Virus record (IMG/VR): IMGVR_UViG_3300023174_004998
Span: 32,551-96,550 of that record
DNA: 64,000 bases
DNA from: a virus
Strand: one strand, 5' to 3'
Part shown: positions 16,495-30,200 of the stretch, one piece after another
Layout: the number at the start of each line of letters is the position of its first letter
Position numbering within the stretch: the stretch's first letter is position 1
The notes under the pieces: generated by a model
Seen by the model: the letters and a program-made list of their open reading frames with translations, nothing else
The model's database searches: none
What the model was told of the DNA's origin: nothing
Position numbers and translations under genes: made by a program

Positions 16495-17127
16495 TTATCT
16501 TCCTGCATTGCGTATGGCTGCACCGTTGTTGAAACTCTGGCTCCAGGAGTTAGCAGTACGATTACCTTTGCGAGCACTCCACTCGTAGCCTGCACGATGC
16601 CCTGAACAGTCTTTGGTGCATTGACTGCCTTTGAACATCAGCTCGTTTAGCTGTTCTTCTGTAAGACTTTCATCTAGTTCGTCATCCCCAAACTCCATGT
16701 GGTCATATGGGCCCCAGGGTTTGCCTGTACGACTATCTAGTTCACCTGATTCGTCACCGTGTTCATAGTAGTCATCGCTGTAGATTTCCACACCATCGAA
16801 TGTGCCATTGTAGCCAATGTTAAACCTGCGTGTGACACCGTCAGGACAAACAATGCCACGTTGTAACAATCGTTCTATGTCTTCTTGACTCTTGATACCT
16901 TTTTGCAAGTTGCCAGTATCATACACACCGTTGTACCAAGCTGATGCTAGAGTTCTAAAATAGTCTCCAGAATCACTGCCGCCTCCGGGTGCAAACTCAT
17001 TTAAGTCTTCGTTCTTCTTGCGACCTTGGCAATGAGCACGTTGGCTGAAACCTTTGGGGTTAGAGCAATCTATAGAGCGTTTGTATTTCCGGCTCCATTT
17101 TTCTGAGATGAATTCTTCAGCTCTCAT
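16495..17127 (-). CDS. Putative capsid-internal protein with capsid-targeting N-terminus and basic Cys modules
   Basis: 210 residues from ATG 17127 (ATGA overlap). It starts MRAEEFISE, like the T4 capsid-targeting sequence MKTYQEFIAE removed by gp21 after I/L-x-E. Then comes a basic module (KWSRKYKRSIDC, NPKGFSQRAHCQGRKK) and a second likely cleavage point LNE at 42-44 followed by FAPGGGS, a junction also found in the 1,798-aa protein. The C-terminal module has SQCTKDCSGHRAGYEWSARK and SWSQSFNNGAA. Processing would release a 35-residue basic Cys peptide and a larger acidic part. The proteins probably reside inside the capsid with DNA; function after ejection is unknown. Confidence 0.7.
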   Translation of the reverse strand: MRAEEFISEKWSRKYKRSIDCSNPKGFSQRAHCQGRKKNEDLNEFAPGGGSDSGDYFRTLASAWYNGVYDTGNLQKGIKSQEDIERLLQRGIVCPDGVTRRFNIGYNGTFDGVEIYSDDYYEHGDESGELDSRTGKPWGPYDHMEFGDDELDESLTEEQLNELMFKGSQCTKDCSGHRAGYEWSARKGNRTANSWSQSFNNGAAIRNAGR

Positions 17128-17531
17128 TTGGTCACCGGTCCACCTTCGACCCAAGCATCGCAGGTGCGCTTGGCTGCACACTTAAATTTTAGAAACTTGC
17201 AATATCCTAGATCGCCAGCATCTATGGTGTCATGTGGATCTGACCCTGGTTCACTGCCAATGCCCCTGGCTATACAATCCAGCATGTCAGGACTCATATC
17301 AAAGGCCGCACAGTTGCCACAGCGGTTGTTCTTTACTGATTCAATATCGTTGGTGTTCCAACGGTCGGCCAGTTCAGCCCAGTATTCTTCATTGGGCTCG
17401 TTGGGATTTAGCGGACCATAGTGATATTCATCTATGGCCTTTTGACGATTCTTGAGATTGAGATCAATGCTCTGCGTGGCTGGTGGACAGCCTTTTTCTA
17501 GAGCTTCTAACAAGTTGATATAGTTTCTCAT
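17124..17531 (-). CDS. Cys-rich putative capsid-internal protein, 135 aa
   Basis: Starts MRNYINLLEALEKG; LLE followed by A is a possible prohead-protease site. The C-terminal half has six cysteines in the order CGNC, LDCIARG, YCKFLKFKC and RTCDAW, suggesting an iron-sulfur or zinc site. From memory, similar Cys-rich phage proteins exist without assigned function. It overlaps both neighbours by ATGA, in the capsid-internal polycistron. Confidence 0.65.
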   Translation of the reverse strand: MRNYINLLEALEKGCPPATQSIDLNLKNRQKAIDEYHYGPLNPNEPNEEYWAELADRWNTNDIESVKNNRCGNCAAFDMSPDMLDCIARGIGSEPGSDPHDTIDAGDLGYCKFLKFKCAAKRTCDAWVEGGPVTK

Positions 17532-18136
17532 TTTGTTGATTTAGCTTCAGCACGGTCTTGTGCTTTGAGAGGTAAACTTACAGGGTATTGATAACAAGCT
17601 TCTGGGTTACCCTGACCAGCTTCGGTCAAGAATGATGTAGCTGCCGGAACTTGTCCCGATGGGCATGAACACACAGCAATGCCATCAGCACCTTTGACAC
17701 AGTTCCAACTGAAACAGTTGCTGGACTTGGCGCCAAGATTCAAACTGGCATCACACTTTTGTACAGTGGCTTTTTGTTTCCATGGTAATGAACTAAAGTT
17801 GCTGGCTTCTTGTGGGTAAAACAGTTTGGGAGCAAACAAACTCCAAACATTTTTATCACTAGTAGGCGCACATGAACCTTTCATATTGCCAGCTGAGGTA
17901 TCAGCAATAGCATGGCCTTTGAGTATGGGGCAACGGCATTCTACTTCAGGATATGGCACACCATTGTTGCCAGTGATCATTTTTGGTGTTCCATCTTTGT
18001 TCATGACTGGTTTGCAAGTGCTGGCGGCACACAGCGCATATTCGCCATCACAGAGTGTAATACCAGCAGTGGGCAATTGAGCCAACACAGGGGTTGACAG
18101 CATTATGAATGCTACTATTGCTAATAATTGTTTCAT
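17528..18136 (-). CDS. Secreted Cys-rich protein with Sec signal peptide
   Basis: 202 residues. The N-terminus is a classical signal peptide: MKQLLAIVAFIMLSTPVLA with cleavage expected after the second Ala of VLA. The mature part has about 11 cysteines, often in C-x-C or pairs, consistent with periplasmic disulfide bonds. No domain is recognised. An exported protein is unusual amid capsid-internal genes. It may act in the host periplasm during infection. Its stop overlaps the next start by ATGA. Confidence 0.75.
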   Translation of the reverse strand: MKQLLAIVAFIMLSTPVLAQLPTAGITLCDGEYALCAASTCKPVMNKDGTPKMITGNNGVPYPEVECRCPILKGHAIADTSAGNMKGSCAPTSDKNVWSLFAPKLFYPQEASNFSSLPWKQKATVQKCDASLNLGAKSSNCFSWNCVKGADGIAVCSCPSGQVPAATSFLTEAGQGNPEACYQYPVSLPLKAQDRAEAKSTK

Positions 18137-18149
18137 TGTTTTCCTTTGA

Positions 18150-18251
18150 TTAAGTTTTTAATAACTGCTTGAGTTTGTCCAACGCGGCATTGAAGTTCTC
18201 TGCTATTATTGTAAATGCTTGTCCTTCTACAGTAAAGTTATATGTTCTCAT
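18150..18251 (-). CDS. Small protein, 33 aa
   Basis: ATG 18251 to TAA 18150, 33 residues starting MRTYNFTVEGQAFTIIAEN and ending in a Leu/Lys helix. AAGGAG lies eight nt upstream, within the end of the preceding gene. No known function. The opening resembles small phage beta-hairpin plus helix proteins. Confidence 0.5.
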   Translation of the reverse strand: MRTYNFTVEGQAFTIIAENFNAALDKLKQLLKT

Positions 18252-18252
18252 T

Positions 18253-18783
18253 TCATGCTCCTTTGTTTTTGATCCAGTCATCTGGAGTCTTGTTGTGCTT
18301 GGCTACAAAACGATCATGTAGCTGTTTGGCAGTTATTTTTGATTTTTTAGCGATGGACTGCATCATGTGATCAATGGCATCGTAACTGGTGGGATTTTTT
18401 AAAACCTTTTCTAAATCCTTGACCTCGTCTTCACGCACCCGGGTAGCTACGTTCTTAGCTGGGCCTCGGCGTTCGGGATTGGGATCTTCTCTACGCTTCT
18501 TGGCCGCGGCTGATGCACGTTTCTTTTTGCCCAGTGCATAGGCCTTGGATCTTGGCAAACACTTGGGTTTACCTTCCGAATCATCGCCACGGGCACAGTC
18601 GCCACGAATCTTGCCATCGGGCCCAAAGCGTACCCATTTTTCCTTGAACCACTTCTTGAGATCCTCTTCCATTTGCTGTTCGCTCACAGGCACACAGTTA
18701 GGCACCATGCGGTCACCTTTTTTCTTCATGCCTGCTTGACGATATCCAGTCCAGCAAGCTTCGAGGATTTCTTGATATCTCAT
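18253..18783 (-). CDS. Basic putative capsid-internal protein with DUF5872-like module
   Basis: 176 residues starting MRYQEILEA, which mirrors MKTYQEFIAEA of T4 internal proteins; cleavage would follow ILE. Next is a Cys/Lys module (CWTGYRQAGMKKKG, then VPNCVP). A block KKWVRFGPDGKIRGDCAR with KPKCLPRSKAYALGKKKR resembles the short DUF5872 domain of viral proteins; that identification is from memory. The remainder is Lys/Arg/Ala-rich, with a KHNKTPDDWIK end. Very basic overall, as expected for a protein packed with DNA. Overlaps the next gene by ATGA. Confidence 0.65.
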   Translation of the reverse strand: MRYQEILEACWTGYRQAGMKKKGDRMVPNCVPVSEQQMEEDLKKWFKEKWVRFGPDGKIRGDCARGDDSEGKPKCLPRSKAYALGKKKRASAAAKKRREDPNPERRGPAKNVATRVREDEVKDLEKVLKNPTSYDAIDHMMQSIAKKSKITAKQLHDRFVAKHNKTPDDWIKNKGA

Positions 18784-21700
18784 TTTTTCTTACCGCCATT
18801 GCCCCAGTTGTCAGCACCTTTTTTACGACACTGTACTAAAGCACCTGAAGCATAGGCACTGGGCCAAACTTTGTAACGTGATTTAACTTTATTGTAGCAA
18901 GCGTCTTGTTTTTCATCCAACTGGTCTTCGCCCAGTTCTATGTCACGACGATCTTTGGCTCTTTTCTTAGCATAGTCGGTTTGTGGATTCTTTGGTTGAC
19001 GTGCAACTGGTTTGCCGGCATCTACATCACGTTCACGAGCACGACGCTTTTGATAATCAGTTTGACCTTCCGCCACACCTTGCTGACTCAGTGCTTGACG
19101 TGCTTGTTTCAAGCGCACCAAGGCAGTGCTTTCACCTAACATTGAATCTTCGTCTTCACGATACACGGCCTTCTTCATGGCCAAGAACTTTTGCAGTGCT
19201 GCCAAGTCTTTGGTGTATTTGTCTTTGAGATCTTGGAATTGACGATCTGTTTCTGGCACAGGATACAGTTCTTCCATTTCAATATCTGCTTGCAGGCCAG
19301 GGTAGATACCGCCACGCACATTCTGTGCCTTTAAGAACAGCTTGTCGATCTGTTCTTTCATCTGGATTAACTCATCCAACAATGCTATGTGACGTCTAAG
19401 ACTTAGAAATTCTTCATGACGTTGAGTACGTTGAGCATTTGATGGACGACCACGACGTGGTCCAGCAGGTGTATTGAGATCAACTGCGGCCGGCGCTGGC
19501 TGTGCAGGTTGTTGTAGACTGCGCAACACTGACATGGCCTTGTCATTGAGTGCTTCTTTGATGTAGCCTTGCTTGATACCAACTTTGAGCAAATCGCCAA
19601 TACGTTGTTGTATCGCGGCCTTGGCTTCTGGATCACTCATCAGCGCGATGTCTTTTTGTAGTTCACGCATCACACGCATTTTTTCTGCCCAGTCGCTCAC
19701 AGTCGTGATGGCATTGTATCCTGAACGATTTAAATCTTCAGTTTCACGTATCTTGATACCTTGGCTTTGTGCGCGGCCTTCTAACTCAGCAATCTTCAAA
19801 CGGATGGCTTCTTTCTCACCAGGAGAAGCATTGGCCATCTGACGGAATAGTCGATCACGTGCATTTAAAAACTCTTCACGTTGTTTATTGCTACCGCCTG
19901 GTGTGGGTTGTGCAATGTTGAACTTGTCCATGCGTTGATTTTCACGTGCGATACCAGTCCAGTTAATAGTACCTGTGGGCCAGCGTACACCAATTTCCAT
20001 GGAAGGATATTTCTTCTTTAGAGCTTGTGCATGAGCAAAGGCTTTGTTGGAACTGTGGTGCTGTTTGAGATCACTGACAATACCATCCTTGCGACGTACC
20101 ACACGGAAGTCGCCCACTGGTTCTTCTTCCCCAGCTGATTGTTCTCTGCGTTTGAAATTTTGTGAAGCCTGCTGACCCGCTTTCCATTGCTGTTCAATGT
20201 CTAGGTCTTTGAAACGACCTTCTTCAACATAGTCTTCCTCATCAGCATAGTCATTGTATTTGACATTGGAAGCATGAAACGCATGTTTACCAAAATTGTA
20301 GAGATCCACTATGACAAAGTGCTTGTCACGGCCAAAGCCTGAGACATCACCAGTCTTGCCAGCATGCTCTACGTTGCCACCAATGATCACAGGATCACCA
20401 ATGTGTAATTCTTCATTGCTTTCGTTCATACCAACTGCTTTGCCAAAATCTCCCATGTCTACTCCTTGCAGTGCGGCTGCCATTGGGTCCACTGCGGCAT
20501 CTGATTTTTTCTTTCGAGCACGACTGATAGGAATCACTTTTCCATCATCCTTGGGTATTTCCACATACGGTGGTGCCTGTATCACAGTTGGTTCAGCGAT
20601 TTTCTTGGGAGCGGTTTTCTTGGGAGCGGCTTTCTTACGAACTGCTGGTTTCTTTTTCTTCTCAGGAGCAGGCTGTGCCACGTCTGTTGGTTGTTGCTGT
20701 GGTTGAGTAGCAACTTCTGGTTCTGCGGGTTTCTCTGCGGCCTTTGGTTGTGTTGCTTGCGGTTCTTCAGGTTTCACAGCAGGCTTGGCCGGAACTTCAG
20801 GAGCAGTTTTGGCTACCACTGGTTCTGGTTGTTGTTTGAGTTGTTGTATTTCTTGATCTTGTTGTTGCACCACAGCGGCCAACTGTTGCATCTGTTGATC
20901 TTGAGAATCGTTGTCTTTGCGTAGTTGATCAATTTCAGCTTGTGCGGCCTGCGATTTTTCTAATTCGTCCTGTACAAAGGCTTCAATGTCACTGCCGGCC
21001 GCACTTTGACGAGCACGGGCCAGCTGGAAAGCTCTGGCCACTCGGGGATTTACCATGCTCTTACGATCTAATTCTGTTATTTCAGAATTTTTTTTTTGAG
21101 CTTCAGCTTCTTTGATTTTGGGAGTGCCCATGCCAGGCAGATCCATCTGGCCTGGAGGAACAGGTTCTGTGCCTGGTGCAACATAGGCAGGAACTTTCTT
21201 AGGCATCATACCTTTGGCACGCAATTTGTCAATGTAGTCAACCATGGCCAACTTGTCACCAAATGTATTAAGAATGATGTTGACTTTTTGCTGTGGCTTC
21301 ATACGGCCAAAGTCTTTTAATATAGCATAGATCTGCGAACGATAAAGAGTAAGAGGGCGATCGCCAGCAAATTCGAATTCACTGTAGGGCTTGTTTTCCA
21401 TGTAGTCTTTGATCATGCGTTCCCAATTGATCTTGCCTGCTGTTTGTGTAGTAGGACGATCTGGATTGGCCATGGCGATCTCTTCTACAGCTTGATCTTC
21501 TTCCATCTGTCCGGGCATGGTATCACCTGTGACACCACGTTCGCCAGGAATACTACCTTGGAAATTCTTTTGTTTGTCAATGAGTTGACGCAGTTGTTTC
21601 ATGTGCTGATCAAACTTCACAGGATCTGCAAGATGATTCAAGAACTCTTCCTGACGACCTGCTTTGTTAAATGCTTTGTACTTGGCAAATATCCAACGTG

Positions 21701-21836
21701 TTTCCATTGGATCTAGAGTGATTGTTTCACCGCCAATGTTGAGTACAGCATCCTGTCCTGATTGGGAGGCCTGCATCAAGGCTCGTAAATTATCGTAGCC
21801 TGTGGTAGTATCTTCGATCAAGTTCAGTAAATTCAT
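18780..21836 (-). CDS. Large putative capsid-internal scaffold-like protein, 1,018 aa
   Basis: Starts MNLLNLIED, with LIE near the position of a protease site. About residues 270-440 are coiled coil followed by Gln/Pro/Ala/Lys low-complexity sequence. Near 480-540 there is a small beta-barrel-like region (GDPVIIGGNVEHAGKTGDV) resembling KOW/SH3-type folds. The C-terminal region is Lys/Arg/Asp-rich and ends after QLDE with a basic Cys module (KQDACYNKVKSRYKVWPSAY, then QCRKKGADNWG). Its composition fits a prohead core or internal head protein cut at several LxE sites. No enzymatic motif was seen. TAATG overlap with the upstream gene. Confidence 0.65.
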   Translation of the reverse strand: MNLLNLIEDTTTGYDNLRALMQASQSGQDAVLNIGGETITLDPMETRWIFAKYKAFNKAGRQEEFLNHLADPVKFDQHMKQLRQLIDKQKNFQGSIPGERGVTGDTMPGQMEEDQAVEEIAMANPDRPTTQTAGKINWERMIKDYMENKPYSEFEFAGDRPLTLYRSQIYAILKDFGRMKPQQKVNIILNTFGDKLAMVDYIDKLRAKGMMPKKVPAYVAPGTEPVPPGQMDLPGMGTPKIKEAEAQKKNSEITELDRKSMVNPRVARAFQLARARQSAAGSDIEAFVQDELEKSQAAQAEIDQLRKDNDSQDQQMQQLAAVVQQQDQEIQQLKQQPEPVVAKTAPEVPAKPAVKPEEPQATQPKAAEKPAEPEVATQPQQQPTDVAQPAPEKKKKPAVRKKAAPKKTAPKKIAEPTVIQAPPYVEIPKDDGKVIPISRARKKKSDAAVDPMAAALQGVDMGDFGKAVGMNESNEELHIGDPVIIGGNVEHAGKTGDVSGFGRDKHFVIVDLYNFGKHAFHASNVKYNDYADEEDYVEEGRFKDLDIEQQWKAGQQASQNFKRREQSAGEEEPVGDFRVVRRKDGIVSDLKQHHSSNKAFAHAQALKKKYPSMEIGVRWPTGTINWTGIARENQRMDKFNIAQPTPGGSNKQREEFLNARDRLFRQMANASPGEKEAIRLKIAELEGRAQSQGIKIRETEDLNRSGYNAITTVSDWAEKMRVMRELQKDIALMSDPEAKAAIQQRIGDLLKVGIKQGYIKEALNDKAMSVLRSLQQPAQPAPAAVDLNTPAGPRRGRPSNAQRTQRHEEFLSLRRHIALLDELIQMKEQIDKLFLKAQNVRGGIYPGLQADIEMEELYPVPETDRQFQDLKDKYTKDLAALQKFLAMKKAVYREDEDSMLGESTALVRLKQARQALSQQGVAEGQTDYQKRRARERDVDAGKPVARQPKNPQTDYAKKRAKDRRDIELGEDQLDEKQDACYNKVKSRYKVWPSAYASGALVQCRKKGADNWGNGGKKK

Positions 21837-22654
21837 TATTGTTCTTCCAAGTAATCTTCGTTTTGTGTTGTACGCATACGACGTCTGTTGAGATACATCT
21901 CACAGGCCATCACAGCATGATCCAGGCTTTCAAACTTTGCTGAATGCGGTTTATTCTTTATGGTAATACGGAAACCATCATCTTCGTTTCCGTGTATCTT
22001 GATTTCTTTACCATCATCAGTGACGATGGTTTTCACAGCAGAAGTGATCTTGTCAATGTCCTGCGGTACTTTGTCTTTGAGATCAGAGTCTGATTTGATT
22101 TCTTTTGATAGATCAGATAGATAGTCGCCCAGTTTCTTTTTTACAGTGGAGATGACATCCTCAGTGGCCTTGGCTTCCGACAAACTTGAACCGGCCAGTA
22201 TTTGTTCAACACTGCGCACATAGGCTGATACATCACTGCTGCCAATTTCGTCTACATCGCCCACAAACTCAGCAACATCACGTGCGGCATCCATCACTGC
22301 CTGTGGACCATAACGGCCCAACAAACTGGTGTGTTGCATCATGATACGATGCAAGATAGCACGTTCTACTGGGTTGTCATTATCTTCGCTTTCCAAAAAT
22401 GATTTGGTATCTGGATCCACACCATCAGGAGTCTCATCTGCTCCAGTGTCACCTACTTCGCTACCCCAACCTGTTTCGTCCCCTTCGCCAACCAAATAAC
22501 CTTGTGTGGCGTTCTTGCCAGGATATGGGCCTGACAACTGTGGTGACGTGTTACGAGGCTTAAACAACGCAGGTAATTGCTTGACGCTTTTTTGTGCGGC
22601 GTCAATGCTTTCTATGCGATTGAACGATTCAAGTATCTTGCGTAGGTCTGCCAT
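21836..22654 (-). CDS. Putative capsid-internal protein, 272 aa
   Basis: ATG 22654 is preferred over an upstream ATG inside the dps gene. The protein starts MADLRKILESFNRIE and is acidic, with long helical segments and a GDVDEIGSSDVSAYVRSVEQ region. The C-terminal half carries a KKLGDYLSDLSKEIKSD helix and a beta-rich DDGFRITIKNKPHSAKFESL end. No enzyme motif. Position and helical content suggest a prohead core or internal protein, but the targeting signal is less clear than in neighbours. Confidence 0.6.
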   Translation of the reverse strand: MADLRKILESFNRIESIDAAQKSVKQLPALFKPRNTSPQLSGPYPGKNATQGYLVGEGDETGWGSEVGDTGADETPDGVDPDTKSFLESEDNDNPVERAILHRIMMQHTSLLGRYGPQAVMDAARDVAEFVGDVDEIGSSDVSAYVRSVEQILAGSSLSEAKATEDVISTVKKKLGDYLSDLSKEIKSDSDLKDKVPQDIDKITSAVKTIVTDDGKEIKIHGNEDDGFRITIKNKPHSAKFESLDHAVMACEMYLNRRRMRTTQNEDYLEEQ

Positions 22655-22656
22655 GA

Positions 22657-23097
22657 TTATGCTCTTGCGTCTTTTAAGAAACTCTTGAGTTGCCATGCAT
22701 ACTTGCCATGACTGTCTTGACGTTCTGCCATGAAGTTGGCAATGTCCTCACGTCCTTCGGCCTGTGCGACTTGAAATACTTGCATCACAATGCTCTTCAT
22801 TGTTTCTGTATCTGCCAATAATTCTTCTAACATTAGTCGAGCACGTGGAATCTTTGTCTGTCCAGGAATTTGACTGAGTTCATTGAAACGCTCTAGGCTG
22901 CCTGGTGCATAGTCTTCCAAGGTGCGAATGTACTCAGCAATCTTGTCTACAGCACCATATGCATCTGCATAGATTTCAGCAAAAAATTCGTGCAATTGAG
23001 CAAAGTCTGGACCTTCCACATTCCAGTGGAACATCTGTGCTTTTAAGTAATAAGCAAAATTACTGGCTAATAGAGTTTTCAAATCGTCTGACAGCAT
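22657..23097 (-). CDS. Dps-like ferritin (DNA-protection protein)
   Basis: 146 residues matching the Dps/bacterioferritin-like four-helix fold. The Dps ferroxidase ligands are all in place: His24 (MFHWNVEGPDF), His36 (QLHEFF), Asp51 and Glu55 (GAVDKIAEYI). Dps oxidises Fe(II) with peroxide and coats DNA as a dodecamer. It lies between capsid-internal genes under a late-type promoter. That suggests packaging with or protection of phage DNA rather than early metabolism. It lacks a targeting N-terminus. Length is typical for the family. Confidence 0.88.
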   Translation of the reverse strand: MLSDDLKTLLASNFAYYLKAQMFHWNVEGPDFAQLHEFFAEIYADAYGAVDKIAEYIRTLEDYAPGSLERFNELSQIPGQTKIPRARLMLEELLADTETMKSIVMQVFQVAQAEGREDIANFMAERQDSHGKYAWQLKSFLKDARA

Positions 23098-23242
23098 TGG
23101 GTTTCTTCTTTCTAGAATTCTTTTTATATTTATCCGCAGGCACTATAGGCTGGGTTCTTGACAACACAGCACCCATGGGCATGGCAACAGTGGCTATGCC
23201 GCCGCTAACCGTGGTTTCTGCTATAAATTCATGCGCTCTCAT
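23060..23242 (-). CDS. Small putative capsid-internal protein, 60 aa
   Basis: From ATG 23242: MRAHEFIAE, an almost exact analogue of the T4 capsid-targeting sequence MKTYQEFIAE, then TTVSGGIATVAMPMGAV and a basic tail (KYKKNSRKKKPNAVRR). Cleavage after IAE would leave a 51-residue peptide. It resembles T4 IPI-IPIII in layout: short, cleaved and basic. Its end overlaps the dps start by 38 nt. Confidence 0.7.
   Translation of the reverse strand: MRAHEFIAETTVSGGIATVAMPMGAVLSRTQPIVPADKYKKNSRKKKPNAVRRFENSISQ
23127..23134 (-). promoter_or_regulatory. T4 late-promoter-like octamer before dps
   Basis: Minus strand GATAAATA, 29 nt before ATG 23097, resembling the T4 late -10 element TATAAATA. It lies inside the 60-aa gene. 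Confidence 0.5.
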
Positions 23243-23528
23243 TGACGATCTCAAAGGTTTTTGAGTCAATGACTTGTGCAGGGCCATTGGATACTTTTAA
23301 GTTGCGTATTTTAAATTGACAGTCTGGATCGCCAAGATTATCTACTCTTATAGTGTATTTTCCTGGTGGCGCATCTAGAGATATATTTTCTTCAAGATAC
23401 TGTGTACCGCCCCAGATATAGGTACGCTCTGTGAATAGCTCATGATTCACATATAATCGATAAACTGGGGGCACCTTTTTCCAATCACAAAAAAGGTCTA
23501 GGTTTACTTTTACAAAATGTTTACGCAT
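23229..23528 (-). CDS. Hypothetical beta-sandwich-like protein, 99 aa
   Basis: ATG 23528 (MRKHFVKVNLDLFC) is chosen because a late-type octamer ends five nt upstream. The sequence alternates hydrophobic and polar residues, with YRLYVNHELFTERTYIW and APPGKYTIRVDNLG, a beta-sandwich pattern. It resembles the 148-aa protein at 34.9-35.3 kb in style (VNPSEF... GIELWIDKAKFFD). Possibly virion associated; function unknown. Confidence 0.55.
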   Translation of the reverse strand: MRKHFVKVNLDLFCDWKKVPPVYRLYVNHELFTERTYIWGGTQYLEENISLDAPPGKYTIRVDNLGDPDCQFKIRNLKVSNGPAQVIDSKTFEIVNESA

Positions 23529-23533
23529 ACAGA

Positions 23534-23541
23534 TATTTACC
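23534..23541 (-). promoter_or_regulatory. Late-promoter-like octamer, leaderless spacing
   Basis: Minus strand GGTAAATA followed by TCTGT and ATG 23528. The spacing of five nt would place the transcription start at or next to the ATG. Confidence 0.5.
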
Positions 23542-23556
23542 GCATGCGTAATTGTG

Positions 23557-24297
23557 TCATTTATGAAAGTTGTCGTACCAGCTGGCTTGCCTACTGAGTT
23601 GTATACCACGTTGGCGTTCAGCTTTGTTGCCTGATTTTTTCATTTTGTTGGCTTTGGCTCGCAGGCGCTTTAGATCTGTTTGACTTAACTTTTCTCCAGA
23701 ACCCTTGCCCAAATAGGCAGCGGCTTTGCGTTTGATGCTACCTGGGCGGCTACCGGGCTTGGCAGCTCCGGTAAAATCTTCCACGGTATTGAGATAGGAT
23801 ACAAGTGTTTCGTTCATGCCAGACTCCTGAAAAATAGGACCTTGAACAGTGTTACCACGCTGTCCAACAATGACTTGATTAAGGTGTTGTGCCCATTCTG
23901 GATTTGCATCAAAATGGCGTCGACGTAGTCCCAAAGGAAATAAATGTACTTCCACAGGATCGTCACCTTCGCTTTGCAGTATGGCCATCATTCTATGGCG
24001 GCCATCATGCCCAACTACTCTAGCTGGTTTAGATAAATTGTTTGATTCCCAGCCCTCGGGTATGTCTATTTCCAAGAACGGTGCGCCAATGCCTTCTGTA
24101 TCTTTGTGTTGTTTGACATATTCTACAGCTTCTTGATCTTGTGGAGTATTGGGCATGGGCAATGCCAACTTTAAGAAAGTACTGGGACGCATGGCTACTC
24201 GCAGTCCAAAGTAGTCAATTTCTTGATTCTTGGGAACACTACCAATGCCTGATTGGTTGTTGATCTTGTATTCGTCAATAAACTCGTGGGATCTCAT
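23557..24297 (-). CDS. Putative capsid-internal protein with ParB/Srx-like core, 246 aa
   Basis: Starts MRSHEFIDEYKINN, a capsid-targeting-like sequence with cleavage expected after IDE. A central region has KPARVVGHDGRHRMMAIL, reminiscent of the ParB/sulfiredoxin-type GHHR motif, followed by DPVEVHLFPLG. The C-terminus is a basic module (RKAAAYLGKGSGEKLSQTDL, then LKRLRAKANKMKKSGNKAER and RQASWYDNFHK). Such a protein may be packaged and ejected. The ParB-like reading is tentative. Confidence 0.6.
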   Translation of the reverse strand: MRSHEFIDEYKINNQSGIGSVPKNQEIDYFGLRVAMRPSTFLKLALPMPNTPQDQEAVEYVKQHKDTEGIGAPFLEIDIPEGWESNNLSKPARVVGHDGRHRMMAILQSEGDDPVEVHLFPLGLRRRHFDANPEWAQHLNQVIVGQRGNTVQGPIFQESGMNETLVSYLNTVEDFTGAAKPGSRPGSIKRKAAAYLGKGSGEKLSQTDLKRLRAKANKMKKSGNKAERQRGIQLSRQASWYDNFHK

Positions 24298-24614
24298 TAG
24301 CGCACCCGTAACACAGGATTGCGCCCGTGGTAGTTTTCGTTGTGATACACAGTATTCAACAACAGCTTGTTGGGATCAAAGGCCGACCTCATCATGCCAA
24401 GATGTATGTTGTGGTGACTGTCAAAAACATTGAACTGTGTGTTAGGTTCCAACTCTTTGATGTGTCTGCGAGCACGATCTAATCTGTTGAGTATGCCTAC
24501 GATTATGGGCATAGAGATTCCACGCTTTTCAGCACGATTGTCCAAGTGCGGACTCACACGTATGCGGAATCCACCTGCGTTGAGATCTTCAGTGACAAAT
24601 TCTTGAGCTTTCAA
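24297..24614 (-). CDS. Putative capsid-internal small protein, possibly toxin-like, 105 aa
   Basis: TTG start at 24614 (TTGA overlap) gives MKAQEFVTEDLNAGG, again targeting-like with VTE. The rest has His-rich LDNRAEKRGISMPIIVGIL, FNVFDSHHNIHLGMMRS and NTVYHNENYHGRNPVLRVR. The His/Arg pattern and alpha-then-beta layout recall small ribonuclease toxins, but I cannot assign a family. Confidence 0.55.
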   Translation of the reverse strand: MKAQEFVTEDLNAGGFRIRVSPHLDNRAEKRGISMPIIVGILNRLDRARRHIKELEPNTQFNVFDSHHNIHLGMMRSAFDPNKLLLNTVYHNENYHGRNPVLRVR

Positions 24615-24793
24615 CGCACTCTCCTGATGGCACCAATGTGATGATCTTCTATACCATACTGTGCTTTCAATAACTGGCGTGCTTCTGCTTGATTGTGAGC
24701 ATACACTGACACTTCAATCCTACCTGTGTAGTTGGGATTGCTGATGGTAATTTTAGCCAACCAACGGTGTCCTGTGAGTTCTTTTGCTCGCAT
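24611..24793 (-). CDS. Small putative capsid-internal protein, 60 aa
   Basis: Starts MRAKELTGHRW, related to the MRAxEF family but lacking the Glu expected at the cleavage point. It has a beta-alpha pattern (RIEVSVYAHNQAEARQLLKA) and an Arg-rich end. Overlaps the next gene by TTGA. Function unknown. Confidence 0.6.
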   Translation of the reverse strand: MRAKELTGHRWLAKITISNPNYTGRIEVSVYAHNQAEARQLLKAQYGIEDHHIGAIRRVR

Positions 24794-24806
24794 AATGTAT
24801 TACTTA

Positions 24807-25697
24807 TTAGTTTGTCTCAAAGTTCTTTTGAACGCGATATGTTTCGTCCGGGAACTTGGCCAAGTAAGCGTCAATCATGTGATCGAAACTACTGCCAAAT
24901 CTGGCTTTCAAACTTTTCAAGCTCACTGCCTGATCTTTTTCGTTCATGAACTGACCTGTTTGTTCGTTGTTGATGATATAGTCTTCACCACGATCGTGAT
25001 ATATTTCCAAATAATCACTGTCATTGTACACAGGCAGATCGCCAATGCTGTAGTCAAACCACAGCTGATACTTTTCACCTGGATGTTGAGGTTGTTGCGG
25101 TACAACTATCAGCAGGGGTGTGTTTTCAGCATAGTTGTTGAAATAGTTCTTGCCTTTGGTTGCCGCTGTACACCAGCGTGTGCCTTGCCCATAGTAACAG
25201 GCCGCGGCTTGATCGTAGGGCATGATCACTCGAACTTGCTGATCCTGATATATTTCTTCAGCCTGTCCTTTGTCTTTTAACTCAGGTGCTTCGGGATCTG
25301 GATATTCATCCATCACACTCATGAAGTCACCAAAGTTACTGTAGCCCAAGATATCATTTCTGGGTGCTGGTATTTTTTTTCTGCGAGTTAATACATAGAA
25401 CTTTTCCAAATATTCACGCACCTGTGTGAGTACATCTTCAAGAAATGTTTCACCTTTGATGTAGGTACGAGCCAACCAAGGCATGTACTGTTTGTTGGGT
25501 GAAGGGTCTGCCAGTTCCAACATGCGGATCAAAGCTTCTATAGTATCATCGTCGCTGTCTTGTGGGCCAAGATCACGACCCAGTACTCTGCGTATGCGGC
25601 CCGGCCCTTCTCTACGGAATGTGTTCAGCACTTGAGTTCCCAGGCGTTGCTTGGTTATGTCACGGCTGTATTCTAATAGGAATTCCTGGGCTCTCAT
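24807..25697 (-). CDS. Putative capsid-internal protein with GTxWCTA motif, 296 aa
   Basis: From ATG 25697 (ATGA overlap): MRAQEFLLEYSRD, targeting-like with LLE. A helical middle leads to a core with YYGQGTRWCTAATKGKNYFN and TPLLIVVPQQ, then EKYQLWFDY. The GTxWCTA signature is familiar from large phage proteins of unknown function and faintly resembles the HCV/WCT core of PcfJ-like proteins. No catalytic function can be named. Confidence 0.6.
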   Translation of the reverse strand: MRAQEFLLEYSRDITKQRLGTQVLNTFRREGPGRIRRVLGRDLGPQDSDDDTIEALIRMLELADPSPNKQYMPWLARTYIKGETFLEDVLTQVREYLEKFYVLTRRKKIPAPRNDILGYSNFGDFMSVMDEYPDPEAPELKDKGQAEEIYQDQQVRVIMPYDQAAACYYGQGTRWCTAATKGKNYFNNYAENTPLLIVVPQQPQHPGEKYQLWFDYSIGDLPVYNDSDYLEIYHDRGEDYIINNEQTGQFMNEKDQAVSLKSLKARFGSSFDHMIDAYLAKFPDETYRVQKNFETN

Positions 25698-25894
25698 TTC
25701 TTTCGCCCCGATTTCATATTGGCACACCAATGGTACATCTTGGCACGTTCGCCAGAAGCATTTTTAGCACGTCGACGTAGATCAGTTACACTGCCCGAGC
25801 AACTGGCACCTGCACGTTTTACACGGCCTGGGCGACTTTTTCCTTTGACCCGACCGTCGGCAAAGTTTTCCGTTACAAATTCATGTGCTCTCAT
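25694..25894 (-). CDS. Small basic putative capsid-internal protein, 66 aa
   Basis: Starts MRAHEFVTENF; cleavage after VTE leaves a 57-residue, very basic peptide with RPGRVKRAGASCSGSV, DLRRRAKNASGE and YHWCANMKSGRKK. It has two cysteines and many Lys/Arg, the composition expected for DNA condensation inside the head. ATGA overlaps on both sides. Confidence 0.7.
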   Translation of the reverse strand: MRAHEFVTENFADGRVKGKSRPGRVKRAGASCSGSVTDLRRRAKNASGERAKMYHWCANMKSGRKK

Positions 25895-26667
25895 AAACTA
25901 AAAGGATCCATTATAACTAAATGACCATCGCTTCTACGGCGCAGGTTTTCTATGTTGCTCAAATCTAACGGTGCATGACCGCCCAAGGCGTCAATGAGAT
26001 CTTCAGTGGCCATGAGCAACCCTTGGACTTCGTCGTCATCCAACTCAGGAGGCATTGGGTTATTCTGTTGATAAGCATCAGCATATCCACGTGCCGCCGC
26101 GTTCATCAAATCTTCAAGGTATTCCAATGTGGCTTCTTCATTGGCCACATAGTCCAGATATTCCATTTCATACACAAAATAAGTTTCACCGTTGAGAGAG
26201 AATTCACCTGTGTTGTAGATACGAGGATAGTAGGGATTGCGCTGATTGCGTAGGAAAAACGCTACATAATCTCGAACAATCTTTTCACGTTCAGGATCAC
26301 CAATGCCCAGCACTTTGACCACTGTGTTCCTAGGACTGACAAATGCCATCTGATCGCGGCCTTCGCCAGCAAACTGATACCCACGTTTGAAAAAGTAGTC
26401 TTCAATGTGTTGGCTGACTGTGAGTTCGTCATCAGCGTTGATTTCTGTAAGTCCTTTTTTCTTGGCAAAGTCAATTTGACGCAACATGGCATTGATGTCT
26501 ACTGGATCACGCCCACGTACTTTTAAATCTGTTTCTAAGTCCTGTGGTGATGGATCATCTTTTCTCAGCATGCCTGGGTGGCGAGCAAGACTGGGCCTTT
26601 TAGTAGTAGGCGGCACAATGGGGGTGACAGGAGTTATGACTTCAGTTACAAACTCTTGGGCTCTCAT
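25891..26667 (-). CDS. Protein-kinase-like putative capsid-internal protein, 258 aa
   Basis: ATG 26667 (ATGA overlap) gives MRAQEFVTEV, targeting-like. The body follows a kinase fold: a Gly-rich GEGRDQ (101-106), a VVKVLG strand with Lys118, and a YFVYEMEYL hinge (163-171). Next come LDLSNIENL with Asp235 and Asn238, like the catalytic-loop D-x-x-x-N, and HLVIMDPFSL with Asp254 at the DFG position. It could phosphorylate host proteins on ejection. It ends four residues past the DPF, so the usual C-lobe helices are missing. The assignment rests on these motifs. Confidence 0.6.
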   Translation of the reverse strand: MRAQEFVTEVITPVTPIVPPTTKRPSLARHPGMLRKDDPSPQDLETDLKVRGRDPVDINAMLRQIDFAKKKGLTEINADDELTVSQHIEDYFFKRGYQFAGEGRDQMAFVSPRNTVVKVLGIGDPEREKIVRDYVAFFLRNQRNPYYPRIYNTGEFSLNGETYFVYEMEYLDYVANEEATLEYLEDLMNAAARGYADAYQQNNPMPPELDDDEVQGLLMATEDLIDALGGHAPLDLSNIENLRRRSDGHLVIMDPFSL

Positions 26668-27257
26668 GATCCCATCCACCGTGCTATCATTGTGGTGCGA
26701 GCACTTGAATACACACCAGTGCCACGTCGAGTGCTACGCATGCTTCGGCTACCAGGTTCTACAGGAAATGTAAAACGAGTCCAAGTTTTGTTTTGATCTA
26801 CTACGTTGTCTCCAGGCCGTGGACGATATTCTGGAGTGCGTTCCATGGTATAGCCTTTGACTTCTACTCCTGGTATGGAGTTTAACATAAGCCACATGGC
26901 TTGTCCGTGCTTGGTTTGTGTGTCTCCAGCTTCCAATGTAAGTTTGAGTATGTTGAGAGCAATACCATACAGAGCCTTGCCCAATCCTCGACCACGATAG
27001 TCAGGATCTGTGGCCACAGTTTCCACTTGCCAGGTTTTCAATGGATCAAGAGTTGCGCCAAGATCCAGTTCCGCAACCAGGGTGTCACCGTCAAAGATCA
27101 TGATTTCCATAAATTCAGGATCTTTTTTGTTTACAGCATAGGTATAGCCACTGCCGCCTGGCAAAGGTTTTTTCTTTATTTTATAGTCAGGTTGTCTCAA
27201 TGTGTCTTTGTCACCAAAGTCACCTTGTGGTATGCGGGCTATTTCGTAAAATCTCAT
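26664..27257 (-). CDS. GNAT N-acetyltransferase, putative capsid-internal
   Basis: 197 residues from ATG 27257 (ATGA overlap). VETVATDPDYRGRGLGKAL contains the acetyl-CoA loop R-G-x-G-x-G/A (88-95) at the end of beta-4. DPEFMEIMIFDGDTLVAEL provides the preceding strands. The start MRFYEIARIP is of the MRxxEI type but has no clear protease site. The C-terminus is Arg/Ser-rich. Substrate is unknown: host protein, tRNA or antibiotic-like molecule. Confidence 0.8.
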   Translation of the reverse strand: MRFYEIARIPQGDFGDKDTLRQPDYKIKKKPLPGGSGYTYAVNKKDPEFMEIMIFDGDTLVAELDLGATLDPLKTWQVETVATDPDYRGRGLGKALYGIALNILKLTLEAGDTQTKHGQAMWLMLNSIPGVEVKGYTMERTPEYRPRPGDNVVDQNKTWTRFTFPVEPGSRSMRSTRRGTGVYSSARTTMIARWMGS

Positions 27258-30200
27258 ATCATCACCGGTAATACATCCAAGGCACCAGAGTAGTTGTTTT
27301 CTCTGGCCCACATTGATGCTATCCTGTTGGCATCACCTTGATTGTTGCCCGCTCCACTGAATCTATACAGTTCACGGCCAGCACCATCTACAACTTGCCA
27401 CTGCCCAGAAAATTGATTACCAAATGGTGCACCACTGGATTGAGGGAAGTTTTGTGCAACATCTGGTTCAATGTCTTGCACATGGCGTCGAAGCTCTGCA
27501 GACCAATCACCTATTCCTCCTGCAGGTTGCGGTTCACCTATTCTAGCTTTTAAATCTCGAGAGTCTTGAGCATTGTCTGCGGCTCGCTTGACATCCTGTG
27601 GTTGAATTTCTAAATCGTCAGCATTCTCAAAGTCGTGAAGTACAGCCACTCGGGCTAATAGTTTTTGTGCTTGATCTTGATCAACACGCAGTATACTATC
27701 AATCACACGACCTGTGGGTTTGTAAACAACATCCCAATTGCTTTTTTGTTTGGGTTCTTTGATGCGCTTGGCCATTTGAGCGCGAGCACTTAACTTTTTC
27801 TCTGGCTCAGGAGTGTTGTCGGGTCTGCGATATACCTCGTAATCGTCAGAAAGTCGATCTCCGTATTCGGCCTGGACCTTTTCTTTGGCACGATCAATGT
27901 CACCAGCTCTAACAGTCAGTATGATGTCACCGTAGCTATCCATGACATCAAACCAAGGTTGTTTTAACCGCACATCCAACTGACGTGGGTCGTTGCTGTA
28001 TTTTCTGGTATATTGATCGTATGCAGTATCGTAGTCACGAGCATAAAATGTATCAATGATTCCATCAGGACTATTTTTATTAGCCATGTCGTAGACTTCG
28101 TATTCTTGTTTGCCAGTGGTAGGTATTTCTTTTTGTAGTACAGTATCAGCCCACTGTTTCTTGAGTTGTTCTTTGTCAATGGTACCTGCTGAGTATTCAG
28201 AAAACAGTTTCAGTGCGTCATTCTGCGCACCTGGTGATATTAACTTGTAGAGTTTTTTAGCATACTCTCGGCGCTCAAGATCTGGACGGCTGGCAATGTA
28301 CATGGCACGAGCAAAACGCAACATGGTATCTTTGATATCGTCCCATTCGCCACGACTCTCCATGGAGAGATAATCGCCACCCGGTGATCGGAATTCAATA
28401 TAGCCATCCTGTATGTGCGCCGATGTGTATTTGCTAGTACCCACACCTTGCTGAACATAACGAGCAGCCAACTCAATGAGATTCTTCTGTACTAACTCCA
28501 ATGCGCCCATTGGATCTGTTTTGGCTTCTGTGAGGTCGCCACGATTTCTAGCACCCTGTATGTTTTGTTTGAGTTTGCCCATGGCCGAAGCCGCATAGGT
28601 ATTCGAAGCACGACCAAACTTGTCCAGTATGTACTCGTCACCCATGAACAGCACTAATTTAACATAGTCAACATCTCCGCCCACATAGGGTATAGATATG
28701 CCCATGTGCAGGCCTGTGCTGGAGTTGGTGTAGGCATCAGCTTCGTTTTGTGCCCACTCTATTACGTCTTTGAGCTTGTCAATGGTTTCCAACAATGGCA
28801 TAGGTGGACTAACAATTTCCAGCCCCATGTCGTCGCCGTCATCAGGATCTAAACTACCGTCGGGTTCAATGATCCAGCGACCTTCTTTGCGTGTGGTTGA
28901 GTGATAGTTTCCGCTGACTTTGACTTCCATGCCCACCGCTTGTTGAAGACTATCGCCAATTTCACTCCAGTCACGGTCTCCACCTCCGGATCCACCTCCG
29001 GTCCAGTAAGGCCAGTCAAGAGTATTTGAGTTGGCAATATCGCTCATGTAACCATAGCGATCGCGCAAGAAATCACGCTCATCGTAGTCACCTGAGTCTC
29101 GCATCATTTCAAAATAGTATTCGCGAGCATTGTCATAGTATTCGCCTTGGCTCTCTACTTCACTAATGACTTCAGTTTCAAAATCTTCATGTGCGGCATC
29201 TGAGGCTTCTTGATACTTTTGATACAATTCGTTTTGTTTGGCATAAGCTGTTTGATCACTGCTTCTTGTAAATCTTGGTGCATCCTCGCCAGCTTGTAAT
29301 ATTGCTTGTGAATCATCGTCGGGAAACAGTTCATCTATTTTGTCAGCAATGCGTTTTTCACGTTCTTCGTCATCACTCCAGACATTGGTTTCCATGTAGT
29401 CTCGGACTTGATCTTCAGCGTTTTCGCTCCAAGACTCTGCAATTTGTTCATCTGCCCATTCAACAAATTCTTCAAAAAGTGTGTCGCGCAGATCTCGAGC
29501 ACCGCGACCACTTAGACCATAACCCCAGTCATCGTTGGAAAAGAAGTCTATGACATGATCAATATCGTCTGCACGTTCATCATAGTCATAGTCCGGCTCC
29601 ATATCACCTTCGTCATCGTCACGCTTGGTATCACGGAAGATCAATTCAGCTTCAAAGCCAGCACGTATGCCTTGTGCTTCAGGACTACGAGCCCAGGCTT
29701 CCAAGGTGCCGGTGTTCATCCTTACTTCGTTTATGGGTTCAAATTCGCCAGACTCTTTGAATTCTTTCAGGGCATTGGCCAAGTTCTTCATCAACAAGTC
29801 AGGACGACCTTGACTGTCTGTTTGCAAGCCTAATTTATTGGCTTCCTTGCCCAACTGTCCAGGTTTGATGTCCACTGTGAGTGCTGTTTTAAATCTTGGA
29901 TCTCGGGCCTGTTTCTTTGTGGGAATATAACCTGATGCATTTTCACGCACAGGTGCAGGACCTTGTATCACAACCACAGCACGGAACTGACCACCTAGGT
30001 CATCGGCTTCATGTTCTACAGGGCGCCATTCGCCTATGGAAATAGGACCATATCTTCGGTTAGCGTCTGCGTAAGCGGCGTTGAGTGCGGCTTGATAAGC
30101 GTCTTCACGTGTACGTCCAATGCCGTTGGCTGCCACACGTTCACCTTGTGCTTGTGGTCCACCCCAGATGCGTTTTCCACCCACACGTATTTCTTGATTG

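Follow-up and report, generated by a model that had tools for sequence, protein, structure and literature searches.

In the stretch of viral DNA analysed here (the window: 64,000 nucleotides, bases 32551-96550 of the 96,550-base IMG/VR record IMGVR_UViG_3300023174_004998), a block of genes was found in which otherwise unrelated proteins open with one short peptide, MRAxEF followed by [IVL]xE. All the block genes in question are on the minus strand. The peptides are interpreted as capsid-targeting leaders of the T4 type, and they and similar sites inside longer proteins as targets of a prohead protease, so that the block would encode single effectors and polyproteins cut in trans, both carried as cargo of the phage head. 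A probability of about 0.8 is given to this interpretation; the leader, the protease, the site rule, the capsid protein site, the internal junctions and one virion-detected homologous family agree.

In the proposed scheme, the leader has two parts: MRAxEF would direct its protein to the scaffold core inside the prohead, whereas [IVL]xE would be the site at which a gp21-type prohead protease removes the leader as the head matures. Longer proteins would be polyproteins that the same protease cuts in trans at [ILV]xE into small domains. The mature pieces, predicted to include kinase-like proteins, a RegB-like RNase, acetyltransferases, ADP-ribosyltransferase (ART)-like proteins, a cell-wall hydrolase and basic DNA-binding-like modules, would remain with the packed DNA and most likely reach the host via the tail. 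Packaging and cleavage in this phage are strongly inferred, while ejection and effector function of the bodies are proposed on the T4 precedent.

The family B DNA polymerase of the record is nearest to those of jumbo T4-like myoviruses, namely Sinorhizobium phage Phosso (50%) and Agrobacterium phage Atu_ph07 (47%), with CBB, GAP32 and 121Q next (each ~42%); no DNA-level match to the region was found among cultured phages. A scan with the 1798-amino acid (aa) protein at the end of the block found 55 related loci, on IMG/VR contigs that reach 355 kb in length, and a host search for relatives of this protein in bacterial genomes gave none. The leader statistics below span 84 related loci, and many of the open reading frames (ORFs) come from related contigs, so that the counts are not fully independent. 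The group consists of uncultivated giant phages, and much use was made of one relative, G002 (343 kb, 436 ORFs called).

Leader peptides and internal junctions

The initial annotation had named eight N-termini, and all of them are present on the minus strand (Table 1). Seven open with M[RK]xxEF[IVL]xE; the eighth, MRYQEILE, does occur at the start of its protein but is a looser variant. The view that the motif is too regular for chance was borne out. The strict DNA pattern ATGMRNNNNNNNGARTTYVTN has six matches in the record, all inside the block and all among these N-termini, and none for the reversed control pattern, while across 16 contigs of the group the counts are 63 and 4, respectively. 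As the pattern is enriched over the reversed control and clustered, chance recurrence of the leader is excluded. Of the 436 ORFs of G002, seven have [x][FY][ILVM]xE close to their start; all seven fall in two clusters, and a scan of N-termini for the motif gave positions 5-6 as the sole peak. The first cluster follows the 1798-aa protein, which is also the arrangement in the window. The second is flanked by the tail tube/head closure genes on one side and by the terminase on the other, and it contains the leaders MKTFAEYLTE and MKTLREYITE and, after these, MRAREFVTE and MRAREFITE. The first two keep exactly the spacing of T4 MKTYQEFIAE. For the window leaders, the spacing match to T4 that had been claimed holds within EFxxE, but from Met to Glu they are one residue shorter.

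The seed M[KR]xxEF alone retrieved 115 distinct ORFs in the 84 loci, with I, V or L at residue 7 in 93 (81%) and Glu at residue 9 in 85 (74%). Conversely, among 92 ORFs retrieved with M....F[ILV].E, residue 2 is Lys or Arg in 91 and residue 5 is Glu in 85. Alignment of 44 unrelated leader proteins gave the consensus MRAxEFxxE and almost nothing conserved beyond it (mean column identity 8%). The codons vary synonymously (A3: GCA32/GCC26/GCT18/GCG6; E5: GAA60/GAG28; F6: TTT67/TTC29), thus the leader is conserved as a peptide, which points to selection acting on that peptide at the head of unrelated bodies.

In cultured relatives together with T4, the leader pattern gave 6 matches against 8 for the control; therefore the array is not a general feature of Rak2-like phages. 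The N-terminal motif peak was not found in the first 390 kb of Atu_ph07. T4-type late promoters (TATAAATA) were absent from the window and, in G002, were not linked to the array. Of note, an adjacent pair of small MRAREF/MRAHEF genes near the terminase is kept in G002, G003, G006 and G008 (loci L076, L079, L080 and L082), and its second gene (VIPGLSAADPYKNYRF) is well conserved.

The bodies of leader proteins also occur within larger proteins of related phages, there without MRAxEF, and modules are shared across different protein contexts in the group. For the junction analysis, profiles were made from the bodies only, beginning after the leader Glu, and the residues directly preceding each internal occurrence were read. 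The triplet [ILVMF]xE lies exactly at the junction (offset 0) in 75 of 90 internal cases with lighter deduplication and in 65 of 73 after removal of similar contexts, other offsets from -10 to +10 giving 0-7. The rule holds in 10 of the 11 module families with internal cases, and among the 67 junctions having Glu, 64 carry V, I, L or M at P3. A leader-blind scan, relying solely on where local alignments begin between proteins of shuffled context, gave [ILV]xE as the first aligned triplet 241 times against ~29 expected. When a module is moved inside a larger protein, MRAxEF is dropped and xE is retained; therefore the targeting half of the leader is separable from its cutting half. Judged from these alignments, the arsenal is partly a set of predicted polyproteins with xE sites separating their modules, which the initial annotation had missed. 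Internal junction sites of this kind are not described in the available passages of prior open-access reports. In the cyanophage gp114-type proteins that share basic modules with the block, the junction rule is exact in 4 of 14 cases only, and it is not claimed for them.

Prohead protease, capsid protein and virion homologues

The proposal that the leader is a T4-like capsid-targeting sequence with a gp21 site at its end agrees with the conservation of the peptide, with the S77 protease and the capsid site of relatives and with the PA5oct homologue described below. The gp21-type protease that was to be sought elsewhere in the genome was detected in relatives, but not in the record itself: a search for S77 proteases gave hits in 9 of 14 long relatives (E from 1e-24 to 1e-28) and none in this record, where head genes are missing and no control passed the cut-off. 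Their alignment with T4 gp21 shows no variation at the catalytic residues: His in NHP/DHP, Ser in GVSSRG and Asp in VDxV. In G002 the genes, named by sequence and order, stand in the classical order portal, small core proteins, protease, scaffold and major capsid protein.

The published cleavage rule of gp21 is L/I-x-E. The major capsid proteins of the relatives read NTRKYLKENASAGST, and in one case YLAESATAGAT, at the place of FLTE/AEIGG in T4 gp23 (a slash marks known or predicted cleavage). By comparison with gp23, the capsid cleavage point of the relatives would be YLKE/NASAGST. This resembles the 60-aa leader family MRAREFIKE/NASAGATSSG, and the same Glu-Asn step is present in both.

The window protein at 24807-25697 is homologous to gp279 of phage PA5oct (E=1e-13), and the MKTxxEY[IL]TE protein of the second cluster (MKTFAEYLTE) is homologous to PA5oct gp282. 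Both PA5oct proteins carry a note of electrospray ionization tandem mass spectrometry (ESI-MS/MS) in their record, and their genes flank the terminase gene on either side. Homology thus supports the presence of one leader-protein family in the virion. The PA5oct (Wroclawvirus) virion proteins gp279, gp281 and gp282 share the place near the terminase, although their N-termini are divergent (MKLFEVFTLYED, MKSFRDYYDAS) and no MRAxEF array was seen in that phage. Proteomics of MIJ3 detected four major proteins only.

Composition of the block

Many families and folds, unrelated to one another, are represented among the leader bodies. Without their first nine residues, the leader proteins have isoelectric points (pI) from 4.7 to 11.5. 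An AlphaFold model of the protein at 24297-24614 is a compact domain behind a disordered leader, with a predicted local distance difference test (pLDDT) score of 81, in which leader residues 1-8 score below 50 and the fold starts from residue 11. Among predicted viral structures (BFVD) it matches a RegB-type site-specific RNA endonuclease (E=2.4e-5); against PDB folds, weak matches to HigB2/RelE toxins were obtained, all above E=0.001 (HigB2 0.03). For the second half of the 25891-26667 protein, the matches are to protein kinases and to aminoglycoside phosphotransferases (PknB at E=9e-5 with probability 1.0), and with TM-scores as low as 0.35-0.45 this would indicate a kinase-like fold class only. 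The relatives bear leaders on ART- or PARP-like, NUDIX, HAD, GH19 and HTH bodies, some of the ART-like calls being made by eye from a Y-H-G/Y-T motif without Pfam support. Mixed multidomain examples are L041 (kinase-GNAT-PARP-basic), L004 (HAD-GNAT-basic) and L014 (ART-like-GH19); the last consists of an ART-like part, a TAT-like segment (E=0.019) and the hydrolase. No body matched the PADLOC models, and PDB sequence searches with two bodies gave nothing meaningful.

Table 1 Genes of the block, with the positions of their leader starts. Slashes mark predicted cleavage sites.
Protein	Coordinates	Strand	Leader start	Remarks
MRAEEFISE/KWSRKYKRSIDC..., leader protein, 210 aa, at least two modules	16495..17127	-	MRAEEFISE, 17127	Second supported site ELDE/SLTEEQL after residue 153
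MRNYINLLEALEKG..., 135 aa, perhaps with a looser leader that ends in LLE	17124..17531	-		Weak, from sequence
MRYQEILE/ACWTGY..., 176 aa, fused basic modules	18253..18783	-	MRYQEILEA (looser variant), 18783
MNLLNLIE/DTT..., 1018 aa, basic C-terminal module	18780..21836	-
MADLRKILE/SFNRIES..., 272 aa	21836..22654	-		Supported junction SLSE/AKATEDVISTVKKKLGDYL
Dps/ferritin-like protein inside the array, without leader	22657..23097	-		Pfam Ferritin E=1.6e-20
MRAHEFIAE/TTVSGGIATVAMPMG, leader protein, 60 aa, basic	23060..23242	-	MRAHEFIAE, 23242	Relatives read MRAREFIKE/NASAGATSSGSV
MRSHEFIDE/YKINNQSG, leader protein, 246 aa	23557..24297	-	MRSHEFIDE, 24297	ParB-like body suggested by eye
MKAQEFVTE/DLNAGG, leader protein, 105 aa, RegB/RelE-fold candidate endoribonuclease	24297..24614	-	MKAQEFVTE, 24614	TTG start after AGGAG; ATG in homologues
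MRAQEFLLE/YSRDITKQ, leader protein, 296 aa, GTRWCTA family	24807..25697	-	MRAQEFLLE, 25697	Homologue of PA5oct gp279
MRAHEFVTE/NFADGRVKGKSRPGRV, leader protein, 66 aa, pI 11.5	25694..25894	-	MRAHEFVTE, 25894
MRAQEFVTE/VITP...GLTE/INADDELTV, leader protein, 258 aa, second part with protein-kinase-like fold	25891..26667	-	MRAQEFVTE, 26667
MRFYEIARI..., GNAT acetyltransferase, 197 aa, incomplete leader	26664..27257	-		No Glu at residue 9; Pfam Acetyltransf_1 E=7e-6
Multidomain protein, 1798 aa, without leader	27254..32650	-		Nucleotidyltransferase-like N-terminus, HEXXH metallopeptidase-like part, amidoligase domain

The block had been described as a polycistron of leader proteins. The leader genes do stand in a row, but genes without a leader are interspersed among them, namely those of the Dps-like protein, of a protein with an apparent signal peptide and of the 1798-aa protein. 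A GNAT protein had been counted among the leader bodies; the acetyltransferase is indeed encoded at 26664-27257, but its N-terminus MRFYEIARI lacks the Glu.

Internal sites supported by alignment were found in the 18253-18783 protein (QMEE/DLKKWFKEKW after residue 40 and VRE/DEVKDLEK after residue 118), in the 25891-26667 protein (GLTE/INADDEL) and in the 1798-aa protein (PVRE/NASGYIPTKK at residue 903, with 26 supports, and PINE/VRMNTGTLEAW at residue 975). The candidate junctions of the 1018-aa protein are YIKE/ALNDKA (residue 761) and ELGE/DQLDEKQDACYN (residue 970). The body of the 23557-24297 protein occurs in fused form as KFTE/YKINNQSG in L003 and KINE/YKINNQSG in L006, and the module encoded at 25694-25894 forms the end of many fused proteins in relatives, directly after [ILVM]xE. 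Relatives of the 1798-aa protein begin with MRLxEF. The protein carries an HELTH motif, and its match to the phrog_87 metallo-protease is weak (E=0.0065).

Further observations concern genes in and near the block. The nucleotidyltransferase-like domain of the 1798-aa protein (residues 1-235) has matches in phages of Maribacter, in many cyanophages and in Lak phages; most of the matching proteins lack the remainder of the 1798-aa protein. The basic Cys-containing modules (phrog_727, 3477 and 38880) of the 18780-21836 and 18253-18783 proteins recur in cyanophage gp114-type proteins, which adjoin the terminase small subunit or structural genes. The signal-peptide protein (MKQLLAIVAFIMLSTPVLAQ), rich in Cys and without a leader, is encoded in the same gene row at 17528-18136 of the window. 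Outside the window, the minus strand of the same record encodes at L001:691-3805 three periplasmic solute receptors in a row, unusual company in a phage: a DctP/TRAP receptor (E=5.5e-40) and two of the TctC tripartite tricarboxylate type (E=1e-22 and 4e-7), and at L001:5562-6613 an AhpC-type peroxiredoxin beside a carboxymuconolactone-decarboxylase-family (AhpD-like) protein.

Alternative readings and known systems

The leaders and junctions could be packaging and cleavage signals of proteins that are structural or scaffold parts, staying in the head and not injected. In keeping with such a role, T4 IPIII influences head assembly (PMC9026906), the NASAG module is similar to the arm of the capsid protein, and a number of bodies are small and strongly basic (pI 10-11.5). 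It is nevertheless held to be rather unlikely, since many bodies are enzyme-like (kinase fold, RegB fold, GNAT, NUDIX, GH19, PARP), their variation from phage to phage fits host-directed accessory functions better, and the internal proteins (IPs) and Alt of T4 are ejected (PMC9026906, PMC12373910). One leader locus adjoins tail genes in relatives, as might be expected if the leader were addressed elsewhere (tail, membrane or replication compartment) and [ILV]xE were read by a different protease. This appears improbable, for the site is of the type given by the published gp21 rule and stands at the expected maturation position of the relatives' capsid protein, a homologous family is reported in PA5oct virions, and no further conserved protease is needed.

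The shared N-terminus might be a DNA or RNA element without a protein role, either an enhancer of translation initiation or a joint at which cassettes recombine, as genes swapped between phages have their first nine codons in common and Arg2 is mostly AGA; the codon and junction data largely refute this, third codon positions varying freely and internal junctions retaining xE only, within differing surroundings, so that it is given hardly any credence. Common descent alone, with paralogues retaining an ancestral N-terminus, is equally hard to sustain: some bodies do form one large connected set via shared modules, but the families and folds of the bodies are numerous and unrelated, and internal modules have kept xE without the leader.

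Several observations weigh against the head-cargo interpretation itself. The 96.5 kb record lacks head genes, so the protease is deduced from relatives, and the nearest cultured relatives by DNA polymerase (Phosso and Atu_ph07) are without the array. Virion detection comes from PA5oct homologues and not from members of this group, and PA5oct gp279 is without a clear leader. Matches of the bodies to known enzymes are often weak. Last, Glu 9 is absent from about a quarter of MRAxEF proteins, including HAD and NUDIX types; these may be packed uncut, not packed, or something else.

The closest parallel is given by T4 IPI-IPIII and Alt (PMC9026906, PMC12373910), which have the short E-F-I-x-E N-terminal leader, the L/I-x-E rule, the gp21-type protease and variable bodies that differ between related phages. 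In IPIII, mutational work likewise set the two halves of the leader apart, residues 4 and 7 governing targeting and residues 8 and 10 processing, and the protein with Asp at position 10 is packed uncut (PMC9026906). The injected Ip1-3 block type IV restriction enzymes (PMC12373910), and their action is the best guide to what some of the bodies might do, no target being claimed. Compared with T4, the bodies here are far more numerous, larger and enzyme-like, and modules are also fused, with predicted cleavage sites between them. It seems reasonably probable that the head-maturation protease serves as a general polyprotein processor, whereby dozens of exchangeable modules bounded by [ILV]xE, single or fused, would be cut in the prohead and injected as a mixture of host-modifying enzymes.

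The mixing and shuffling of disparate domains (ART, GNAT, kinase, ParB, nucleotidyltransferase, metallopeptidase) is shared with the polyvalent proteins of phages and conjugative elements, which are predicted to be injected with the DNA (Iyer et al. 2017, PMC5512222). For those, release by embedded zincin-like or assemblin-like peptidases was proposed, the zincin-like domain being the commonest (PMC5512222), whereas here predicted sites of a stand-alone prohead protease part the modules and many modules are single leader proteins. The inner-body and ejection proteins of the giant phages phiKZ, 201phi2-1 and SPN3US are likewise head proteins cut after Glu by a gp21-related protease, and SPN3US gp53 and gp54 share identical N-termini (PMC5694885). 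In contrast to the present case, several propeptides there exceed 100 residues, the SPN3US motif is A-x-E and the cargo includes RNA polymerase (PMC5694885), while the present protease belongs to the T4-like S77 family. The system proposed for the window would work as T4 internal proteins and polyvalent proteins at once, differing from each.

Proteins injected by phages are hard to learn and are known for few phages. One short signature, checked at leaders and junctions, allows head-packed and possibly injected candidates to be read from the sequence, and it gives exact predicted mature ends that are testable by mass spectrometry. It joins two formerly separate ideas, T4 internal proteins and polyvalent proteins, via one protease, and it offers many candidate enzymes for host takeover or counter-defence, together with a large collection of natural tags for capsid packing.

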